Shown here: piece after piece, positions 27,843 through 34,694 of the stretch
Layout of the letters: each line of letters opens with the position of its first letter
How positions within the stretch are numbered: position 1 is the first letter of the stretch
Source: Micromonospora pattaloongensis
GTDB lineage: Bacteria > Actinomycetota > Actinomycetes > Mycobacteriales > Micromonosporaceae
Assembly: GCF_900107255.1 (NCBI RefSeq)
Contig: NZ_FNPH01000006.1
Location: forward strand, 62,001-126,000
DNA: 64,000 nt
Direction of reading: 5' to 3'
Notes under the pieces: generated by a model
Databases searched by the model: none
What the model was told of the DNA's origin: nothing
What the model saw: the letters and a program-made list of their open reading frames with translations, nothing else
Program-made: the position numbers and the translations under genes

Positions 27843-28547
27843 GTGGCGGGGATGATGCGACCCGTGACGGCCGTACTGGTGATCGAGGACGACAACCGAA
27901 TCCGCCTGTCGTTGATGCTCGCGCTGGAGGACGAGGGCTACACGGTGTACGGGGCCGCCACCGCCGAGGAGGGTCTGCTGCTGCACCGCCGGAGCCCCGT
28001 CGACGCGGTCGTGGTGGACCTGATGTTGCCCGGCATCGACGGGTTCGAGTGCATCGCGCAGCTGCGCGTGCAGGACGACGTGCCGATCGTGGTGGTCAGC
28101 GCCCGCGACGACAAGCGAGACATCGTCGCGGCGCTCGAGGCGGGTGCCGACGACTACGTCGTCAAGCCGGTGGCGATCGAGGAGCTCGCGGCGCGGCTGC
28201 GGGCGTTGCGGCGCCGGCTGCGCGCCGTAGTCCCCCGGGCCGACGACGTGCCCACGTTGGTCTTCGGCGACCTGGAGATCCGGCCGGAGGCCGGGGAGGT
28301 GCGGTTGTGTGGAGAGCCCGTCGCGGTGACCCGCACCGAGTTCCGGCTGCTGTGCGAGCTGGCCGAGCACCCGGGACGGGTGCTGTCGCGCCAGCAGCTG
28401 CTGCAGCGCGTCTGGGAGTACAGCATCGGCGACGAACGCCTCGTCGACGTGCACGTCGGGCGGCTGCGGCAGAAGATCGAGCAGGACTCCGGCACGCCGC
28501 GGCACCTGGTCACGGTCCGCGGCCTCGGCTACAAGCTGCAGCGGTGA
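27843..28547 (+). CDS. OmpR/PhoB-family response regulator
   Basis: A 234-residue two-component regulator. Receiver: VIEDDNRIR acidic pair, phospho-acceptor Asp59 in VVDLMLPGIDG, VSARDDKRD, and the switch lysine in DDYVVKPVAIEEL. DNA-binding winged helix from about residue 140: TRTEFRLLCELAEHPGRVLSRQQLLQRVW and DVHVGRLRQKIE ending VRGLGYKLQR. GTG 27843 follows GGGGGAGG; ATG 27852 or GTG of VTAVLVIEDD are alternatives. Its stop overlaps the kinase GTG, so the pair is stoichiometrically translated. Confidence 0.92.
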   Translation: MAGMMRPVTAVLVIEDDNRIRLSLMLALEDEGYTVYGAATAEEGLLLHRRSPVDAVVVDLMLPGIDGFECIAQLRVQDDVPIVVVSARDDKRDIVAALEAGADDYVVKPVAIEELAARLRALRRRLRAVVPRADDVPTLVFGDLEIRPEAGEVRLCGEPVAVTRTEFRLLCELAEHPGRVLSRQQLLQRVWEYSIGDERLVDVHVGRLRQKIEQDSGTPRHLVTVRGLGYKLQR

Positions 28548-29902
28548 ACCGACCCCGCGGGCTGCGGGCCCGCATCGCCGCCGGGTTCGCCGCCGGCGCC
28601 CTGGTCCTGTCGGCCGGCATGGCGCTGGTGTCGTACGGGCTGACCCGCACCTCGCTGCTTGAGGAGCGGGAGCGCACCGCAATCCGGGCCGCCTACTTCA
28701 ACGCGACGATCGTCAACGCGGGGATCAGCGGCGACCAGCCAGACGTGCTGGAGGTGTTGCGTTCGCTGGACACCGGCACCAACCGGCGTCCGGTGCTGCG
28801 CCGCGACGCGCGCTGGTACGCCCGCAGCGCCGACAGCGGGATCACGGACGCCATCCCGCAGGCGCTGCGGCAACTGGTCGAGCAGGGCCGCCCGGCGGTG
28901 CAGCGGATCCGCGCCGGCGACGGCCCGGCGATCGTGGTCGGCGTGCCCCTGGCCGGCGGCACCGCCTTCTACCAGGTTGACTCACTGACGGAGCTGGACC
29001 GCACGGTGCAGACGCTGGCTCTGGTGCTGATCGCGGTCGCGGCGATGACCACCGGGGCCGGCGCGGCGCTCGGCTGGTACACGACGCGCCGCGTGCTGCG
29101 GCCGCTGGCGCTGGTCGCCGACGCCGCCCACGACATCGCGCGCGGCGACCTGACCGCCCGCCTGGACCCCGCCGCCGACCCCGACCTGACCCGGCTGACC
29201 GGCTCCTTCAACCACATGGTCGACGAGCTCGCGCGCCGGCTGGAGCGGGACCGGCGGTTCGCCGCCGACGTGGCGCACGAGCTGCGGTCGCCGTTGCAGA
29301 CGCTGGCGGCCGCCGGTAGCGTGCTCACCCGGCGCCGCGCCGCCCTCGACGACCGGACCGCCACCGCGGCAGACCTGGTGGCCGTCGAGATCCAACGCTT
29401 CCAGACACTCGTTAACGACCTGCTGGAACTGGCCCGCAGCGATCAGCCGGCCCGTCGGGAGCCGGTCGACATCGCGGCGCTGGCCCGGCAGGTCTGCCGC
29501 TCGCGCGGCCTGCCCGACGACATCGTCGAGGTCGCCGAGGGCGCCGCCGTCACCTGGCACGTCGACCGGCGTCGCGTACGGCAGCTGCTGGGCAATCTGG
29601 TCGACAACGCCGTGGACCACGGCGGTGGGCCGGTCGCCGTGCGCATCGGCGGCGCGGGCGTCACGGGTCAGCTCGACGTCGACGACGAGGGGCCCGGCGT
29701 CAGCCCGGAGGACAAGGACGTGATCTTCGACCGCTTCGTGCGCGGCCGGGCGGCCGCGGCGCGCGGCAGCAGCGACGGTACCGGGCTCGGGCTCGCGCTC
29801 GTGGCGCAGCACGTCGCTGCGCACCAGGGACGGGTGGCCGTGCTCGATCGGCCGGGCGGGGGCGCGCGCTTCCGGGTGGAGCTGCCGGGGTGTCTCCGAT
29901 GA
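28544..29902 (+). CDS. membrane sensor histidine kinase
   Basis: A 452-residue HPK1-type kinase. N-terminal TM (about 10-32), a ~100-residue extracytoplasmic sensor, a second TM (about 150-175), HAMP linker (TRRVLRPLALVADAAHDIARGDL), H-box FAADVAHELRSPLQTL with His245, N-box GNLVDNAVDHG, G-boxes DEGPGVSPEDKD and GSSDGTGLGLALV. GTG 28544 overlaps the regulator's stop (GTGA), and its own stop overlaps the following lipoprotein ATG (ATGA), so the three genes form one tightly coupled unit. Confidence 0.93.
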   Translation: MNRPRGLRARIAAGFAAGALVLSAGMALVSYGLTRTSLLEERERTAIRAAYFNATIVNAGISGDQPDVLEVLRSLDTGTNRRPVLRRDARWYARSADSGITDAIPQALRQLVEQGRPAVQRIRAGDGPAIVVGVPLAGGTAFYQVDSLTELDRTVQTLALVLIAVAAMTTGAGAALGWYTTRRVLRPLALVADAAHDIARGDLTARLDPAADPDLTRLTGSFNHMVDELARRLERDRRFAADVAHELRSPLQTLAAAGSVLTRRRAALDDRTATAADLVAVEIQRFQTLVNDLLELARSDQPARREPVDIAALARQVCRSRGLPDDIVEVAEGAAVTWHVDRRRVRQLLGNLVDNAVDHGGGPVAVRIGGAGVTGQLDVDDEGPGVSPEDKDVIFDRFVRGRAAAARGSSDGTGLGLALVAQHVAAHQGRVAVLDRPGGGARFRVELPGCLR

Positions 29903-30477
29903 CCCGTCGCCTTCGGCCCGCGCTGCTCACCGCGCTGCTCGCCCTGCTCGCCGCGGTGTTGCCGGGCTGCGGCCTGCCGGCGGAGCAGCGGCCCCGGCAG
30001 ATCAAACCGCCGCCGGGACCGTTCCCCACCTTCGCCGCCGCTCCCGCGAGCACCGCCCCGGCCGAGCTGGTCGAGCGGCTCTGCTTCGTGCGCGACAACC
30101 GGCTGGTAGCGGTGTCACGCCCGGTGCCGAGCCCGCCGACGATCGCCGAGCAGCTGCGGCACCTGCTGTCCGGACCGACCGCGGTCGAGCGCGACGCGGC
30201 CATCACCAGCGCGTTGACCGGCGCGCCGGCGGTGGGCGCCGTCGCGCCGACGCTCGGGGCGGTGACGGTGGACGTGGGCGGCACCGGCGCCGACACCGGG
30301 CGCAGCGACGAGGCGCTGGCGTACGGCCAGCTTGTCTGCACCTTGACCGGGCGCCCCGACGTCACCGGGGTGATCTTCGTGCGGGATGGCCAGCGGCTGC
30401 GTGTGCCGCGGGCCGACGGCTCGCTGTCGGAGGGGCCGCTGACCGCCGCCGACTACGCGGAGATCACGACGAGTTAG
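29899..30477 (+). CDS. GerMN-domain lipoprotein
   Basis: A 192-residue lipoprotein (signal TALLALLAAVLPGCG, lipobox LPGC at about residue 26) with a GerMN domain (LVERLCFVRDNRLVAVSRPVPSPPTIAEQLRHLLSGPTAVE... GAVTVDVG). GerMN domains occur in LpqB, the accessory of the MtrAB two-component system, and in spore germination proteins. The ATGA overlap with the kinase gene argues that it modulates the sensor at the outer membrane face, as LpqB does for MtrB, or CseA in the CseABC system. Confidence 0.85.
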   Translation: MTRRLRPALLTALLALLAAVLPGCGLPAEQRPRQIKPPPGPFPTFAAAPASTAPAELVERLCFVRDNRLVAVSRPVPSPPTIAEQLRHLLSGPTAVERDAAITSALTGAPAVGAVAPTLGAVTVDVGGTGADTGRSDEALAYGQLVCTLTGRPDVTGVIFVRDGQRLRVPRADGSLSEGPLTAADYAEITTS

Positions 30478-30500
30478 CCGCCCGCCGCGCGGTGCGGCCC

Positions 30501-30530
30501 GATGCCCTCCGCGCATGCGCGGAGGGCATC
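30501..30530. terminator. 30-bp perfect palindrome, bidirectional terminator
   Basis: GATGCCCTCCGCGCA and its exact complement form a perfect palindrome between the GerMN lipoprotein gene and the converging DUF4360 gene. Confidence 0.75.
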
Positions 30531-30555
30531 GGCGGATGGCCAGCTGATCGTCAGG

Positions 30556-31194
30556 TCACTCGTCGCACTGCTTCCAGGCCAGGTGGTAGACGGTCCCGAC
30601 GCTGCCGTCGGTCGAGTCCATGGCCATGAAGCTGGTGGTCTTCGTCGGGTCCGAGGAGCCGGCGGAGACCCGCAGCTCGGTGTTGACGTTCAGGTTGCGG
30701 TCCTCGCCGCACGGCGCCCAGACGATTTCCGCGACCTCGGTCTTGTCCGTCGTCTGCCAGTTGTCGCTGTACGGCCCCGCGAACGAGTGGCTCCTGGGCA
30801 CCGTCGGCGAGGTGCCCTGGAAGTAGTAGTTCGCCCGCTGCAGCCCGGTCGCCCCACGCGCCAGGTGGGCGAAGCCGCGGTAGTCGGCCTGAGCGATGGC
30901 GTACGTGAAGCCCTGTGGCACGTGGATGCGCAGGTTGAGTTGGCAGTTCTTGCGGAAGTCGGTCGGCTTGGCGCCGACGCCCACCTGCGCGAGGTAGTCG
31001 CTGTAGGTGACGGTGAAGGCGGTGTTGTCGGCGGCGGGGGCGACCGCGGCGGTCCCGGCGGGACAACCCGAGCCGTTCACGGTCACGACGTCGATGGTGA
31101 TTCTCTCGGTCGGGGGCGGGGATGACTGTTCAGTGAGCACCGGTGCGACGGCCAGGGCGAGGGCCAGGCCAGCGGTGGCCAGGGATTCGAGCAT
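30556..31194 (-). CDS. DUF4360 secreted protein, copy 1
   Basis: A 212-residue precursor with signal peptide (LATAGLALALAVAPVLT) and a DUF4360 domain, a family of secreted proteins in fungi and actinobacteria without known activity. Conserved features shared by all three copies here: VNGSGCPAGTAAV, DNTAFTVTYSDYLAQ, RKNCQLNLRIHVPQGFTYAIAQADYRG, RANYYFQG, SHSFAGP, DNWQTTD, NTELRV and a terminal WKQC: four conserved Cys that probably form two disulfides. ATG 31194 has GGAAGGA upstream. It follows copy 2 by 62 bases and is likely co-transcribed with it. Confidence 0.85.
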   Translation of the reverse strand: MLESLATAGLALALAVAPVLTEQSSPPPTERITIDVVTVNGSGCPAGTAAVAPAADNTAFTVTYSDYLAQVGVGAKPTDFRKNCQLNLRIHVPQGFTYAIAQADYRGFAHLARGATGLQRANYYFQGTSPTVPRSHSFAGPYSDNWQTTDKTEVAEIVWAPCGEDRNLNVNTELRVSAGSSDPTKTTSFMAMDSTDGSVGTVYHLAWKQCDE

Positions 31195-31256
31195 GGGGTC
31201 CTTCCGATCACCGTGTTTCGGGTATGTGGGGTGGGTGTGTTCCTCGGTCGCGGTGG

Positions 31257-31892
31257 TCAGGCGTTGCACCGCTTCCACGCGAAGTGGTACGTCGTGTTGA
31301 TGCTGCCGTCGGTGGAATCCATCGACACGAAGCTGGTCGTCTTGGTGATGTCCGACGTGCCGGCGGCGACCCGCAGCTCCGTGTTGATGTTCAGGTAGCG
31401 CAGCTCGCCGCAGGGGGCGTACACCAACGACGCCACCTCGCTGGTGTCCGTCGTTTGCCAGTTGTCGTCCAGCGGCCCGCTGAACGGGTGGCTCTTGTAG
31501 ACGGTCGGCGAGTTGCCCTGGAAGTAGTAGTTCGCGCGTTGGGTGGCGGTGGCGCCCGACGCCAGGAACGCGTATCCGCGGTAGTCGGCCTGCAGGATCG
31601 CGTACGTGAAGCCGCTCGGCACCTGCACCTGCAACGCGAGCTGACAGTTCTTCCGGGCATCGGTGGGCTTGGCGCCGACCCCGACCTGGGCGAGGTACTC
31701 GCTGTACGTGACGGTGAAGGCGGTGTTGTCCGGGGCGACCGCGACGGCGGCGGTGCCGGCGGGGCATCCCGAACCGTTCACGGTGATGACGTCGATTTCG
31801 ATCCGCTGCGGGGGCACCGGATCCGTGGGGATGATTATGGGCCCACCGAGCATTGACAGGGCCATGGTGCCGGCGGCTAACAGATTCAGCAT
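31257..31892 (-). CDS. DUF4360 secreted protein, copy 2
   Basis: A 211-residue secreted DUF4360 paralogue, closest to copy 1 (shared VNGSGCPAGTAAV, YLAQVGVGAKPTD, RANYYFQG, SFVSMDSTDGS). Signal peptide is short (LLAAGTMALSMLGGP). It keeps the four Cys and the terminal AWKRCNA. ATG 31892 has GGGAGGA 6 bases upstream. Its promoter (31937-31965) matches the geometry of copy 3's promoter. Confidence 0.87.
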   Translation of the reverse strand: MLNLLAAGTMALSMLGGPIIIPTDPVPPQRIEIDVITVNGSGCPAGTAAVAVAPDNTAFTVTYSEYLAQVGVGAKPTDARKNCQLALQVQVPSGFTYAILQADYRGYAFLASGATATQRANYYFQGNSPTVYKSHPFSGPLDDNWQTTDTSEVASLVYAPCGELRYLNINTELRVAAGTSDITKTTSFVSMDSTDGSINTTYHFAWKRCNA

Positions 31893-31936
31893 TCTGTCCT
31901 CCCGAAGATGCCGACAGGGGTGGCGCGCGCACCGTA

Positions 31937-31965
31937 ACAGTCCCAGATCAATTGACGAACGTCAA
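31937..31965 (-). promoter_or_regulatory. promoter of DUF4360 copies 2-1
   Basis: Minus-strand TTGACG, 17-base spacer, GACTGT, ending 44 bases before the ATG. The -35 hexamer lies within a perfect inverted repeat ATTGACG-AA-CGTCAAT (31951-31966), a possible operator. Confidence 0.5.
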
Positions 31966-32127
31966 TATAACGTGCGGCATGTGTTCAATCGGCAATTGCC
32001 GCAGGGCCGGTTTCCTCGATGCCACGACACTCTGGTGCGAAAAATGACGAAAACGCCTGCACCAGTGGTCGCGGATATGCGACGGCGGCCGCCACCGTAC
32101 CGGTCGCGGCCGCCGTCGGCTTCCGGG

Positions 32128-32751
32128 TCAGTCGCAGCGCTTCCACGTCAGCTGGAACACGGTCCGCACCCCCGCGCGCGTGGCGTCCATGGTCATAAGG
32201 CTGGTGGCGCCGGACGGGCCGGCGTCGACGCGCAGCTCGGTGTTGATGTTGAACAGGGCGTCGGCGCCGCAGCGCGCGTAGACCGCGACCTCCGTGCGGT
32301 CGGTCGTGTGCCATGCCGCGTCCATCGGGCCCGCGAAGGAGTGGCTCGACTCGGCGGTGGCCGCACTTCCCGTGAAGTAGTAGTGCGCCAACTGTGCCCC
32401 GGTGGCGCCGGCCGCGAGCCCGGCATACCCCCGGTAGTCGGCCTGGGCGATCGCGAAGGTGAAGCCCTGGGGGAGATGCACCCGGAGGTTGATCTGGCAG
32501 TTCTTCCGCGAGTCGGTCGCGCGGGTGCTGCCGCCCGCCTGCGCCACGAAGTCGTCGTACGCGACGCTGAAGCTCGTGTTGTCGGGGGCGGTCGTCGCGG
32601 TCGCCGTCCCGGCGCGGCACCCGGAGCCGTTGACCGTCTGCACGTCGACAACGATCTTTTCGGCGGGGGCCGTCGCCGTCGACTGATCAATGGAGGCTGT
32701 CGGGGCGAGCATTGACAATGCCAGCGCGCCCGCAGCCGTCATGTTGAACAT
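32128..32751 (-). CDS. DUF4360 secreted protein, copy 3
   Basis: A 207-residue secreted DUF4360 paralogue, more diverged than copies 1 and 2 (VNGSGCRAGTATA, YDDFVAQAGGSTRATDSRKNCQINLRVHLPQGFTFAIAQADYRGYAG, AHYYFTG, TWKRCD). Signal peptide MFNMTAAGALALSMLA. ATG 32751 is used instead of an ATG 20 codons upstream that falls in the promoter region. It is separated from copy 2 by 235 bases and has its own promoter. Confidence 0.86.
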   Translation of the reverse strand: MFNMTAAGALALSMLAPTASIDQSTATAPAEKIVVDVQTVNGSGCRAGTATATTAPDNTSFSVAYDDFVAQAGGSTRATDSRKNCQINLRVHLPQGFTFAIAQADYRGYAGLAAGATGAQLAHYYFTGSAATAESSHSFAGPMDAAWHTTDRTEVAVYARCGADALFNINTELRVDAGPSGATSLMTMDATRAGVRTVFQLTWKRCD

Positions 32752-33206
32752 GGGGGGATCCTCCAGATTGGCGCGATGTGTGCGCGAACGCAGCCACAGT
32801 AGCAACGCCATAGATCAGAATCAATGAATGAGCCCGCGGCGCGGTGGAATCTCATGGAGATCGCCGCCCCCGTCCAATCCGACGTCACTTAATGAATCGT
32901 CCGATCGATGGCGATGAAACTATTCGCGCTTATTGAACCATCTATGTAACAGGCGCGTAATGTCTGGTCTTTGCCGTGCGCCGGTTCTCCGCTCGACCGG
33001 CCGGCGTGGGCGAGCGCCGTGCCCTCGAGGGTGGTGCCGACGGTCGGGTGCGGCGGTCGCCGATCGCGGTGGCACGCCGCGGAAAGTGCGACGTTTGCTG
33101 TGCCGAGGCATCGGGGACATTTCGCCGGCGTTCGCGGCCCGGGCGGGGACCGGGACGGCGGGACGGTCCGGGCCGCGGGTCGGCACGGCCGGGAAGGGGG
33201 CGAGTG
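32752..33206. other. 455-bp divergent intergenic region
   Basis: No gene is seen. The left part is AT-richer than its surroundings and holds the copy 3 DUF4360 promoter. A plus-strand promoter-like pair TTGAAC (32933-32938), 17 bases, CGTAAT (32956-32961) would start a transcript near 32968, leaving about 240 bases of untranslated leader before the permease ATG. Confidence 0.45.
32796..32824 (-). promoter_or_regulatory. promoter of DUF4360 copy 3
   Basis: Minus-strand TTGATT, 17-base spacer, TACTGT, ending 44 bases before the ATG, exactly the same distance as the promoter of copy 2. Confidence 0.5.
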
Positions 33207-34694
33207 ATGGTGTCCATGCTGCGGACAAAGCCGATCAAGGACGTGATCGCGCAGGCCGAGGACGACGGCGGTCAGGACGCGCCGCGCCGGCTGCGGCGGC
33301 GGCTCGGGCCGGTCGACCTGATGGGATTCGGGGTCGGCATCGTCATCGGCACCGGGATCTTCACCCTGACCGGCATCGAGGCGCGCGAGCATGCCGGGCC
33401 CGCGGTGATCGTCTCGTTCGCGATCGCCGGCGTGGTCGCTCTGCTCGCCGCGCTCTGCTACGCCGAACTCGCCTCCAGCGTGCCGACCGCGGGCAGCGCC
33501 TACACCTACGCGTACGCGACCATGGGCGAGATCGTCGCGTGGATCATCGGCTGGGACCTGCTGCTGGAGTTCGCCCTCGGTGCCGCGGTCGTCGCGCGCG
33601 GCTGGTCCGGTTACCTCGCCGAGCTGTTCGGACTGCCCACCGCCTGGTTCGGGGAGGAGGGCAGCGTCGTCAACCTGGGCGCCATCGCGATCACGCTGTT
33701 TCTCGGTCTGATCGCCACGATCGGCATTCGGCAGTCCGCGCGGGTGACGAACGTCCTCGTCGTGGTGAAGGTCGCGATCTGCCTGTTCGTGGTCATCGCC
33801 GGGCTGTTCTTCGTCAAGGCGGCGAACCTCATGCCGTTCCTGCCCCCGTCCCGACCGGCCGAGGACGGTGAGTCGGGACTGGCGCAGCCGTTGTCCCAGG
33901 CGCTGTTCGGTCTGCAGCCGTCGGTGTTCGGCGTCGCCGGGGTGCTGACCGCGGCCGCGGTGGTGTTCTTCGCGTACACCGGTTTCGAGGCGGTGGCGAA
34001 CCTCGGCGAGGAGACCCGCCGACCGGGCCGCGACCTGCCGCTGGGCCTGCTCGCCACCCTCGCCGTCTCCGGGGTGTTGTACGTCGCGGTGTCGTTCGTC
34101 CTGGTCGGGATGGTCGACTACCGCGAGATCGACCTGGGCGCGCCGATCGCGTCGGCGTTCTCCGCCGTCGGCGCGCACTGGGCCGCGGTGCTGGTGTCGA
34201 TCGCCGCGATCGCCGGGCTGACCAGCGTGATTCTCGTGGAGATGGTGGCGATGGGGCGGATCGGCTATGCGATGGCCCGCGACGGGTTGCTGCCGCCCGG
34301 CGTCGGGGCGATCCACCCGAGGTGGGGCACCCCGCACCGGATCACCGCCGTGGTCACCGTCGGGGTGGCGCTGCTCGCCGGCTTCCTCCCGCTGGCCTCG
34401 CTGGCCGACCTGGTCAGCATCGGGGCGCTCTGCGCGTTCGTGATCGTCTCCATCGCCGTGCCCATCCTGCGGCGTACCCGTCCCGAGCTGAAGCGGCCGT
34501 TCCGGGTGCCGTTCTCGCCGGTGCTCCCGGTGCTCTCCGCGCTGGCCTGCGTCTACCTGATGACGAACCTGTCGGTGGAGACGTGGCTGCGCTTCCTCGC
34601 CTGGCTGCTCCTCGGGGCGCTGATCTATGTCGGCTACGGCCGGCGCCGTAACCGGCTGGCGCAGCGCGAACAGGGCGCGGAGCAGGGGCGGTGA
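33207..34694 (+). CDS. APC-family amino-acid permease
   Basis: A 495-residue amino-acid/polyamine/organocation transporter, cationic-amino-acid (CAT, YfnA-like) branch, with about twelve TM helices. Features: MGFGVGIVIGTGIFTLTGIEA (unwound TM1 substrate motif), CYAELASSVPTAGSAYTYAYATMGEIVAWIIGW, FFAYTGFEAVANLGEETRRPGRDLP (TM6 region), and MVAMGRIGYAMARDGLLP. ATG 33207 has GGAAGGGGG upstream. It is separated by a convergent hairpin from the next gene. Cationic amino acids are the likely substrates by family, not by experiment. Confidence 0.92.
   Translation: MVSMLRTKPIKDVIAQAEDDGGQDAPRRLRRRLGPVDLMGFGVGIVIGTGIFTLTGIEAREHAGPAVIVSFAIAGVVALLAALCYAELASSVPTAGSAYTYAYATMGEIVAWIIGWDLLLEFALGAAVVARGWSGYLAELFGLPTAWFGEEGSVVNLGAIAITLFLGLIATIGIRQSARVTNVLVVVKVAICLFVVIAGLFFVKAANLMPFLPPSRPAEDGESGLAQPLSQALFGLQPSVFGVAGVLTAAAVVFFAYTGFEAVANLGEETRRPGRDLPLGLLATLAVSGVLYVAVSFVLVGMVDYREIDLGAPIASAFSAVGAHWAAVLVSIAAIAGLTSVILVEMVAMGRIGYAMARDGLLPPGVGAIHPRWGTPHRITAVVTVGVALLAGFLPLASLADLVSIGALCAFVIVSIAVPILRRTRPELKRPFRVPFSPVLPVLSALACVYLMTNLSVETWLRFLAWLLLGALIYVGYGRRRNRLAQREQGAEQGR

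Follow-up and report, generated by a model that had tools for sequence, protein, structure and literature searches.

A tandem block of DUF4360 genes in Micromonospora pattaloongensis and a candidate promoter element upstream of two of them

The gene block and its transcription

The window analyzed here is a 64,000-nucleotide stretch of the Micromonospora pattaloongensis assembly GCF_900107255.1 (contig NZ_FNPH01000006.1, positions 62,001 to 126,000). At positions 30556–32751 it carries three complete DUF4360 genes, all on the minus strand and arranged head to tail in the transcription order C, B, A (Table 1). The tandem triplication of DUF4360 paralogues named in the original prediction is borne out, as all three genes score far above the PF14273 cut-off of 27 bits and match positions 2–178 of the 178-position profile. 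A family search of the 5.35 Mb assembly gave three PF14273 matches, all in the block, and no further DUF4360 gene outside it. The protein identity is 70% between A and B, 57% between A and C, and 55% between B and C. No domain other than PF14273 was found in the three copies at E ≤ 0.001, and they have thus no Pfam match to a CBM. Two long stop-to-stop frames in another genome (G029) were considered as DUF4360 fused to other domains and rejected, as they match DUF4360 alone. The common four-cysteine core was also predicted correctly: each copy has exactly four cysteines (A 44/84/162/210, B 43/83/161/209, and C 45/85/161/206), and the four columns are invariant across an alignment of 44 sequences.

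Table 1. Features of the DUF4360 block and its surroundings (window coordinates)
Feature	Position	Strand	Details
Response regulator, upstream of Germane-domain gene	27843–28547		PF00072/PF00486; outside block
Lipoprotein-like, Germane (GerMN) domain	29893–30474	+	PF10646, 33.1 bits; outside block, convergent with it
Strong hairpin directly after A	30490–30552	-	-38.6 kcal/mol, z -3.9; before convergent Germane-domain gene
Copy A, DUF4360 protein	30556–31194	-	212 aa; PF14273, 245.6 bits; starts 62 bases past B
Copy B, DUF4360 protein	31257–31892	-	211 aa; PF14273, 242.2 bits; best conserved of the three; copy modeled
Candidate promoter of B	31937–31965	-	overlaps dyad ATTGACGTTCGTCAAT (element 31951–31965)
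Strong hairpin directly after C	32066–32127	-	-43.9 kcal/mol, z -5.5; terminator-like, no U tract
Copy C, DUF4360 protein	32128–32751	-	207 aa; PF14273, 202.4 bits; transcribed first; evolves fastest
Candidate promoter of C	32796–32824	-	overlaps element TTGATTCTGATCTAT (32810–32824)
Amino acid permease	33207–34694	+	PF13520, 191 bits; outside block

For B as for C, the candidate promoter begins 73 bases ahead of the ATG and ends 44 bases from it, and the reported 17-base spacing and identical distance could be reproduced exactly (TTGACG-17-GACTGT-44-ATG for B and TTGATT-17-TACTGT-44-ATG for C). The broader claim of conserved promoters holds for these two copies, whose element is kept in relatives, but not for copy A, whose upstream region lacks it. 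The -10 box of B is poor (GACTGT). As a generic sigma-70 scan of the block stretch gave 0 sites with 0.3 expected, the promoter call rests on the conservation in relatives. Strong hairpins directly follow C and A, and none was found between B and A; a generic terminator scan found no U-tract terminator in the block stretch. Because of this placement of the hairpins and the lack of an element at A, the block probably forms two transcription units, C alone and B followed by A, with copy A probably read through from B.

Age, relatives, and relocation of the block

The triplication had been considered recent. This is not supported, as Plantactinospora has a block of the same order, C-B-A, the B and C copies group with their positional counterparts, and the synonymous divergence among the window copies (0.72–0.93) resembles that of orthologues of the two genera (0.72–1.00). 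The block is found in Plantactinospora alkalitolerans (L170) and in two further genomes, G031 and G057, which from their flanking genes appear to be congeneric with it, and in all of them the element precedes C and B and is absent from A; the order is kept at loci L170, L032, and L033. P. alkalitolerans also gives the nearest named DUF4360 match to the window copies, at 76%. By match count alone, three more genomes with the same genus handle as Plantactinospora (G143, G152, and G159) each contain exactly three DUF4360 genes, and G032 and G058 likewise have a three-gene DUF4360 block, the relation of which to the window block is not settled by the tree.

It could be that the block arose independently, by a recent triplication in the window lineage, and merely resembles that of Plantactinospora. 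The protein tree (30 proteins) does not resolve the A copies, and the AU test does not reject the grouping of all three window copies (P = 0.10) or of A with B (P = 0.20). The synonymous divergence between A and B, 0.72, is not above the orthologue values. An independent origin is nevertheless highly improbable given what the two genera have in common: the gene order, the presence of the element on C and B and its absence from A, the grouping of the B copies (97/92) and of the C copies (96/93), and, in the C copies, short deletions that fall in the same two loops. Estimated with the Nei–Gojobori method in our own script, dN/dS was 0.10–0.53 in every pair compared, with C evolving fastest. With regard to the proposed diversification, selection is thus purifying on average, and from these sequence comparisons we read the block as old and under purifying selection. 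The copies do not occur singly and unlinked in Plantactinospora, the close-relative pattern named beforehand as speaking against the triplication, but most of the sampled Micromonosporaceae lack DUF4360 altogether. The family was present in 96 of the 250 genomes sampled, among which the window genome is the sole one of its genus; G029, also of Micromonosporaceae, has 60 matches, many of them in runs.

At L032, L033, and L170, the block is bordered on one side by hspR, which follows dnaJ, and on the other, toward clpB, by a gene of the opposite strand. In the window genome, hspR lies on another contig, where dnaJ, hspR, and the same opposite-strand gene are found in succession within 2.5 kb (L338); hspR is 78% and the opposite-strand gene 79% identical, and the stretch from dnaJ through hspR to the flanking gene contains no DUF4360 match. 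As the hspR site of the window genome is empty, the block has changed place as a unit, by relocation or transfer and with or without loss. In a synteny search, none of the window neighbor genes tested, a set without the histidine kinase, was found in the fetched Plantactinospora loci.

The promoter element in DUF4360 genes and elsewhere

The element has the form TTGAY-N4-RTC-N-AT and overlaps the -35 box and the spacer of the B and C promoters. We found it between -95 and -45 in 15 of 64 DUF4360 upstream regions, 14 times at -69 to -74 and once at -54, whereas single-base shuffling gave an expectation of 0.007; the other 49 regions, from in and near Micromonosporaceae, do not have it in that interval. 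The 64 regions comprise the three of the window and 61 from 18 other genomes, with gene starts chosen by script; the set omits G052 and takes in only a minority of the copies of G029. One of the 18 (G072) belongs to another family and the rest, like the window genome, to Micromonosporaceae. In the B promoters of Plantactinospora, position -74 is occupied by TTGACGAACATCAAT. In a named collection of 126 DUF4360 genes from 80 loci, the element occurred within 200 bases in five, all from Micromonosporaceae and one of them at -154, and it was not found in the DUF4360 promoters of that collection outside the family. The element therefore looks like a trait of Micromonosporaceae. Other families gave other words: in the DUF4360 promoters of Pseudonocardiaceae the commonest gapped words were located close to the ribosome site, and a word resembling CCGTTCAG was recognized by eye only, while GTGGCATG was present in 10 of the 47 promoters of Streptomycetaceae.

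The B promoter contains an exact TTGAC-N4-GTCAA, a dyad that may be of the HcpR/FNR type. The element differs from such a dyad in that its other sites deviate (TCGATG, TCTATG) and many of its partner genes are hydrolases. The same string is printed in the available part of a paper on nitrogen-oxide regulation (PMC1274295). The literature searched gave no published description of the element; an AmlR paper reports a 12-base palindrome at one promoter, the sequence of which is absent from the available text (PMC6828939).

A search of nine genomes for the element gave 156 strand hits, and 40 for the variant with an N5 gap. As the test set, we used all 56 non-DUF4360 sites of G000, G031, G057, and G033. 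Of these, 43 had a called gene within 35–400 bases downstream, and at 29 this gene was secretion-like according to a rough script. In total 21 of the 56 sites, mostly from the congeneric G031 and G057 and including some orthologous pairs, were located 40–332 bases upstream of genes with Pfam matches to glycoside hydrolases, polysaccharide lyases, LPMOs, CBMs, F5/8 type C domains, or extracellular peptidases, 14 of them at 60–110 bases. The matches were to GH3 (two), GH5-CBM2, GH6, GH11 (two), GH18, GH43 and/or AbfB (four), GH95, the GH141 insertion domain, LPMO-CBM2, alginate lyase (two), CBM2-fn3, F5/8 type C, and peptidase M7 or M14 (two). Four of the 21 sites (L118, L139, L144, and L290) also lie within a long GC3-rich open frame, perhaps by chance. 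Other sites precede DoxX, a solute-binding protein, or cytoplasmic enzymes or are inside coding sequence. In the window genome, one of the five non-DUF4360 sites precedes a hydrolase, the GH5-CBM2 gene (L127), and the other four have no hydrolase downstream. At L277, L282, and L289 we did not accept secA as a carrier of the element, as the motif appears to overlap its start; SecA was confirmed for L282. Twenty hand-picked sites from other genomes, which enter none of the counts, include genes for GH20 and LPMO-CBM5/12.

As controls, we used the same half-sites at other gaps, 17 sites with N5 and 30 with N3. The Pfam scans covered every called gene at the controls and the test-site genes except those of L114 (minus strand), L277, and L289. 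Three of the 17 N5 sites precede hydrolase or peptidase genes, namely GH16, which belongs to the window genome itself, GH115, and M14, while none of the 30 N3 sites examined, drawn from 140 strand hits and including three near-identical neighbors in one genome, precedes a hydrolase. The difference between 21 of 56 element sites and 3 of 47 controls is significant when the two unlike controls are pooled (Fisher P = 1.6e-4) but not in comparison with the N5 control alone (P = 0.15). The GH16 and GH115 genes of the N5 control may mark genuine sites with five bases between the half-sites; alternatively, the effect may be weak. Raw site counts are no proof of a regulon, as in the four test genomes N3 gave 140 strand hits, N4 75, and N5 18; the N3 hits are mostly GTCGAT, and we think that their excess comes from common codons kept in register.

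A promoter class common to DUF4360 genes and secreted hydrolases is likely, judging from these sites. A plainer account is that the DUF4360 proteins are structural proteins of the envelope or of the spore or aerial surface, expressed from a common strong promoter class, with the hydrolase link arising from TTGAC boxes of exported-protein genes in general. The hydrolase and peptidase genes among the N5 controls agree with this, as do the DoxX and solute-binding-protein genes bearing the element and the position of the block, which has hspR and clpB nearby in Plantactinospora and a Germane-domain gene as neighbor in the window. However, the RTC-N-AT part, at a fixed 4-base gap within the spacer, does not belong to a plain -35/-10 promoter, 14 of the 15 DUF4360 sites fall at -69 to -74, and the 30 N3 sites examined show no hydrolase link. 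We consider a structural role of this kind unlikely.

Predicted fold and possible function

An AlphaFold2 model was made of copy B only and had a pLDDT of 90.8. Its top fold match was Bd1399 of Bdellovibrio bacteriovorus (PDB 8OKH, CASP15 T1194), with a Foldseek E of 2.3e-8 and Z of 13.2 over 160 residues. The two share their beta-sandwich type but differ in sequence, with 13% identity in the alignment and no sequence-level match, and Bd1399 comes from a predatory Gram-negative bacterium. Single and profile sequence searches found no DUF4360 relative in the PDB, 8OKH appearing in the fold search alone; a weak sequence match to 3by5 (E 0.18) was set aside. In the available text, the solvers of Bd1399 report two conserved disulfides and assign the protein to DUF4360 (PMC10792529). 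By analogy, the four conserved cysteines of the window copies would form two disulfides, the pairing being carried over from 8OKH. Weaker fold matches were to CBM61 (E 1.8e-5, Z 6.9), CBM27 (Z 7.6), CBM15, and CBM4. Further ones, at Z 8.3 and below and mostly beta-sandwiches, included TNF-like proteins, lectins, viral capsid proteins, and the cellulose-synthase protein BcsB. All these low-Z matches, those to the CBMs included, may reflect merely a common arrangement. The CBMs have the fold match in their favor, and some CBM-bearing genes share the promoter element, but with Z under 8 and no Pfam match, the DUF4360 copies differ from them in being free-standing and having two disulfides. The model thus predicts a beta-sandwich of the Bd1399 type, of ~180 residues, with two disulfides and no recognized enzyme domain.

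The accessible parts of the literature examined state no molecular function for DUF4360, and the family is known from bacteria and fungi, in predation and plant infection. According to the portions available, a predation transcriptome and a predation mutant screen overlap in a single gene, Bd1399 (PMC10792529, PMC7137782), and VdSCP27 of Verticillium dahliae sets off plant cell death and aids virulence in one double mutant (PMC7170778). VdSCP27 and the other fungal DUF4360 small secreted proteins have the same family annotation and four cysteines and are exported, but VdSCP27 is fungal, plant-associated, and recognized by the plant, its cell-death activity is independent of the cysteines, and the likeness is drawn from the description in the available text (PMC7170778). 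Fungal DUF4360 is mentioned also in the accessible text of PMC10949477, PMC5938622, PMC9860705, PMC11432717, and PMC4704728. These cases, together with the runs of DUF4360 matches in G029, would suit proteins exported against competitor or prey cells, the tandem copies making up an arms-race repertoire. We regard this as rather improbable for the window block: the dN/dS of the block and its orthologues stays at 0.10–0.53, many element partners in Micromonosporaceae are polymer-degrading enzymes, and the three window neighbors scanned encode a response regulator, a Germane-domain protein, and an amino acid permease.

The element that B and C share with genes for secreted polymer-degrading enzymes hints at action on polysaccharides or cell walls. 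Our tentative reading, to which we give somewhat less than an even chance, is that the three genes encode exported accessory proteins binding polymers or walls, expressed with the secreted degradation machinery from an old, relocated block; its main rivals are the antagonistic or predatory role and the plain surface-protein role described above. The B and C promoters would be of sigma-70 type with an operator-like element over the -35 box and spacer. On a polymer substrate or another wall or biomass signal, a putative regulator at the element would induce hydrolases and DUF4360 proteins jointly. After leaving the cell and folding with their disulfides in place, the DUF4360 proteins would attach to the surface of a polysaccharide or of the wall in an accessory or adhesive role, and the three copies might give more protein or a wider binding range. 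The gene family and the structure of Bd1399 are already known, and the interest here lies in the promoter element and the leader. The tie to a secreted-hydrolase promoter class in one bacterial family would make the function testable in soil actinomycetes, and the element, if confirmed, would provide a regulatory handle on the biomass-degrading enzymes of Micromonosporaceae.

Copies A, B, and C all start with a hydrophobic leader that lacks the usual Lys or Arg within the first 20 residues. The proteins are probably exported, by a putative Sec signal or another route. Among relatives, 72 of 124 have neither residue up to position 12, and extending this to position 20 leaves the counts unchanged; leader starts were chosen by script from the Shine–Dalgarno fit and the expected position, and single cases may be wrong. 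Such leaders were found in 47 of 56 proteins of Pseudonocardiaceae, 7 of 13 of Micromonosporaceae, 16 of 47 of Streptomycetaceae, and both of an unplaced MAG, but in none of the four of Nocardiaceae or the two of Streptosporangiaceae. A bolder generalization would be that the actinomycete DUF4360 proteins are free-standing polymer binders, co-induced with LPMOs and glycoside hydrolases via one Micromonosporaceae element, undescribed in the literature searched, and often exported with charge-free leaders that follow the pattern ML(N/T/S)xLAAAx(L/M)AxS, unlike the standard Sec signal. In this full form we find the proposal unlikely. The charge-free leader itself asks what Sec, or another route, takes as a signal. 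Of the secreted hydrolases and peptidases at element sites, a set of 17 that excludes one spurious frame (L144 plus strand), none was without Lys or Arg up to residue 12.

DUF4360 leaders and promoters

Leaders without Lys or Arg among the first 20 residues were frequent in the DUF4360 family, being found in 72 of 124 relatives (loci L170-L249), and those of Pseudonocardiaceae often followed the pattern ML(N/T/S)xLAAAx(L/M)AxS. The leaders of copies A, B and C in the window are likewise free of both residues over this length. By eye, a different word, around CCGTTCAGCGG, was apparently common to the DUF4360 promoters of the Pseudonocardiaceae loci within this collection, and TACCGT-like boxes came after it.

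DUF4360 leader stretches in the window and divergent gene pairs
Feature	Location	Strand	Source
Leader, copy A	31135-31194	minus	window
Leader, copy B	31830-31892	minus	window
Leader, copy C	32690-32751	minus	window
Divergent DUF4360 gene pair, the two members differing in type	L040, L043-L046, L051, L055, L056		other Micromonosporaceae

Copy number and arrangement in other genomes

The 4.5-Mb Micromonosporaceae genome G029 (loci L050, L065 and L066) contained 60 DUF4360 matches, 56 of them above the cut-off and 16 lying within C3:99047-110092. At L064, from genome G052, one DUF4360 gene appears to be broken up between two overlapping frames, and this copy is possibly frameshifted. In the divergent pairs, the element TTGAY-N4-RTC-N-AT was found at promoter distance in only one of the two genes.

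A dyad upstream of DoxX genes

In two genomes apparently congeneric with Plantactinospora alkalitolerans, G057 and G031, a near-perfect dyad (TTGACATCCATCAAT / TTGACAGCTATCAAT) stood 82-83 bases upstream of the ATG of DoxX genes (L116, L133).
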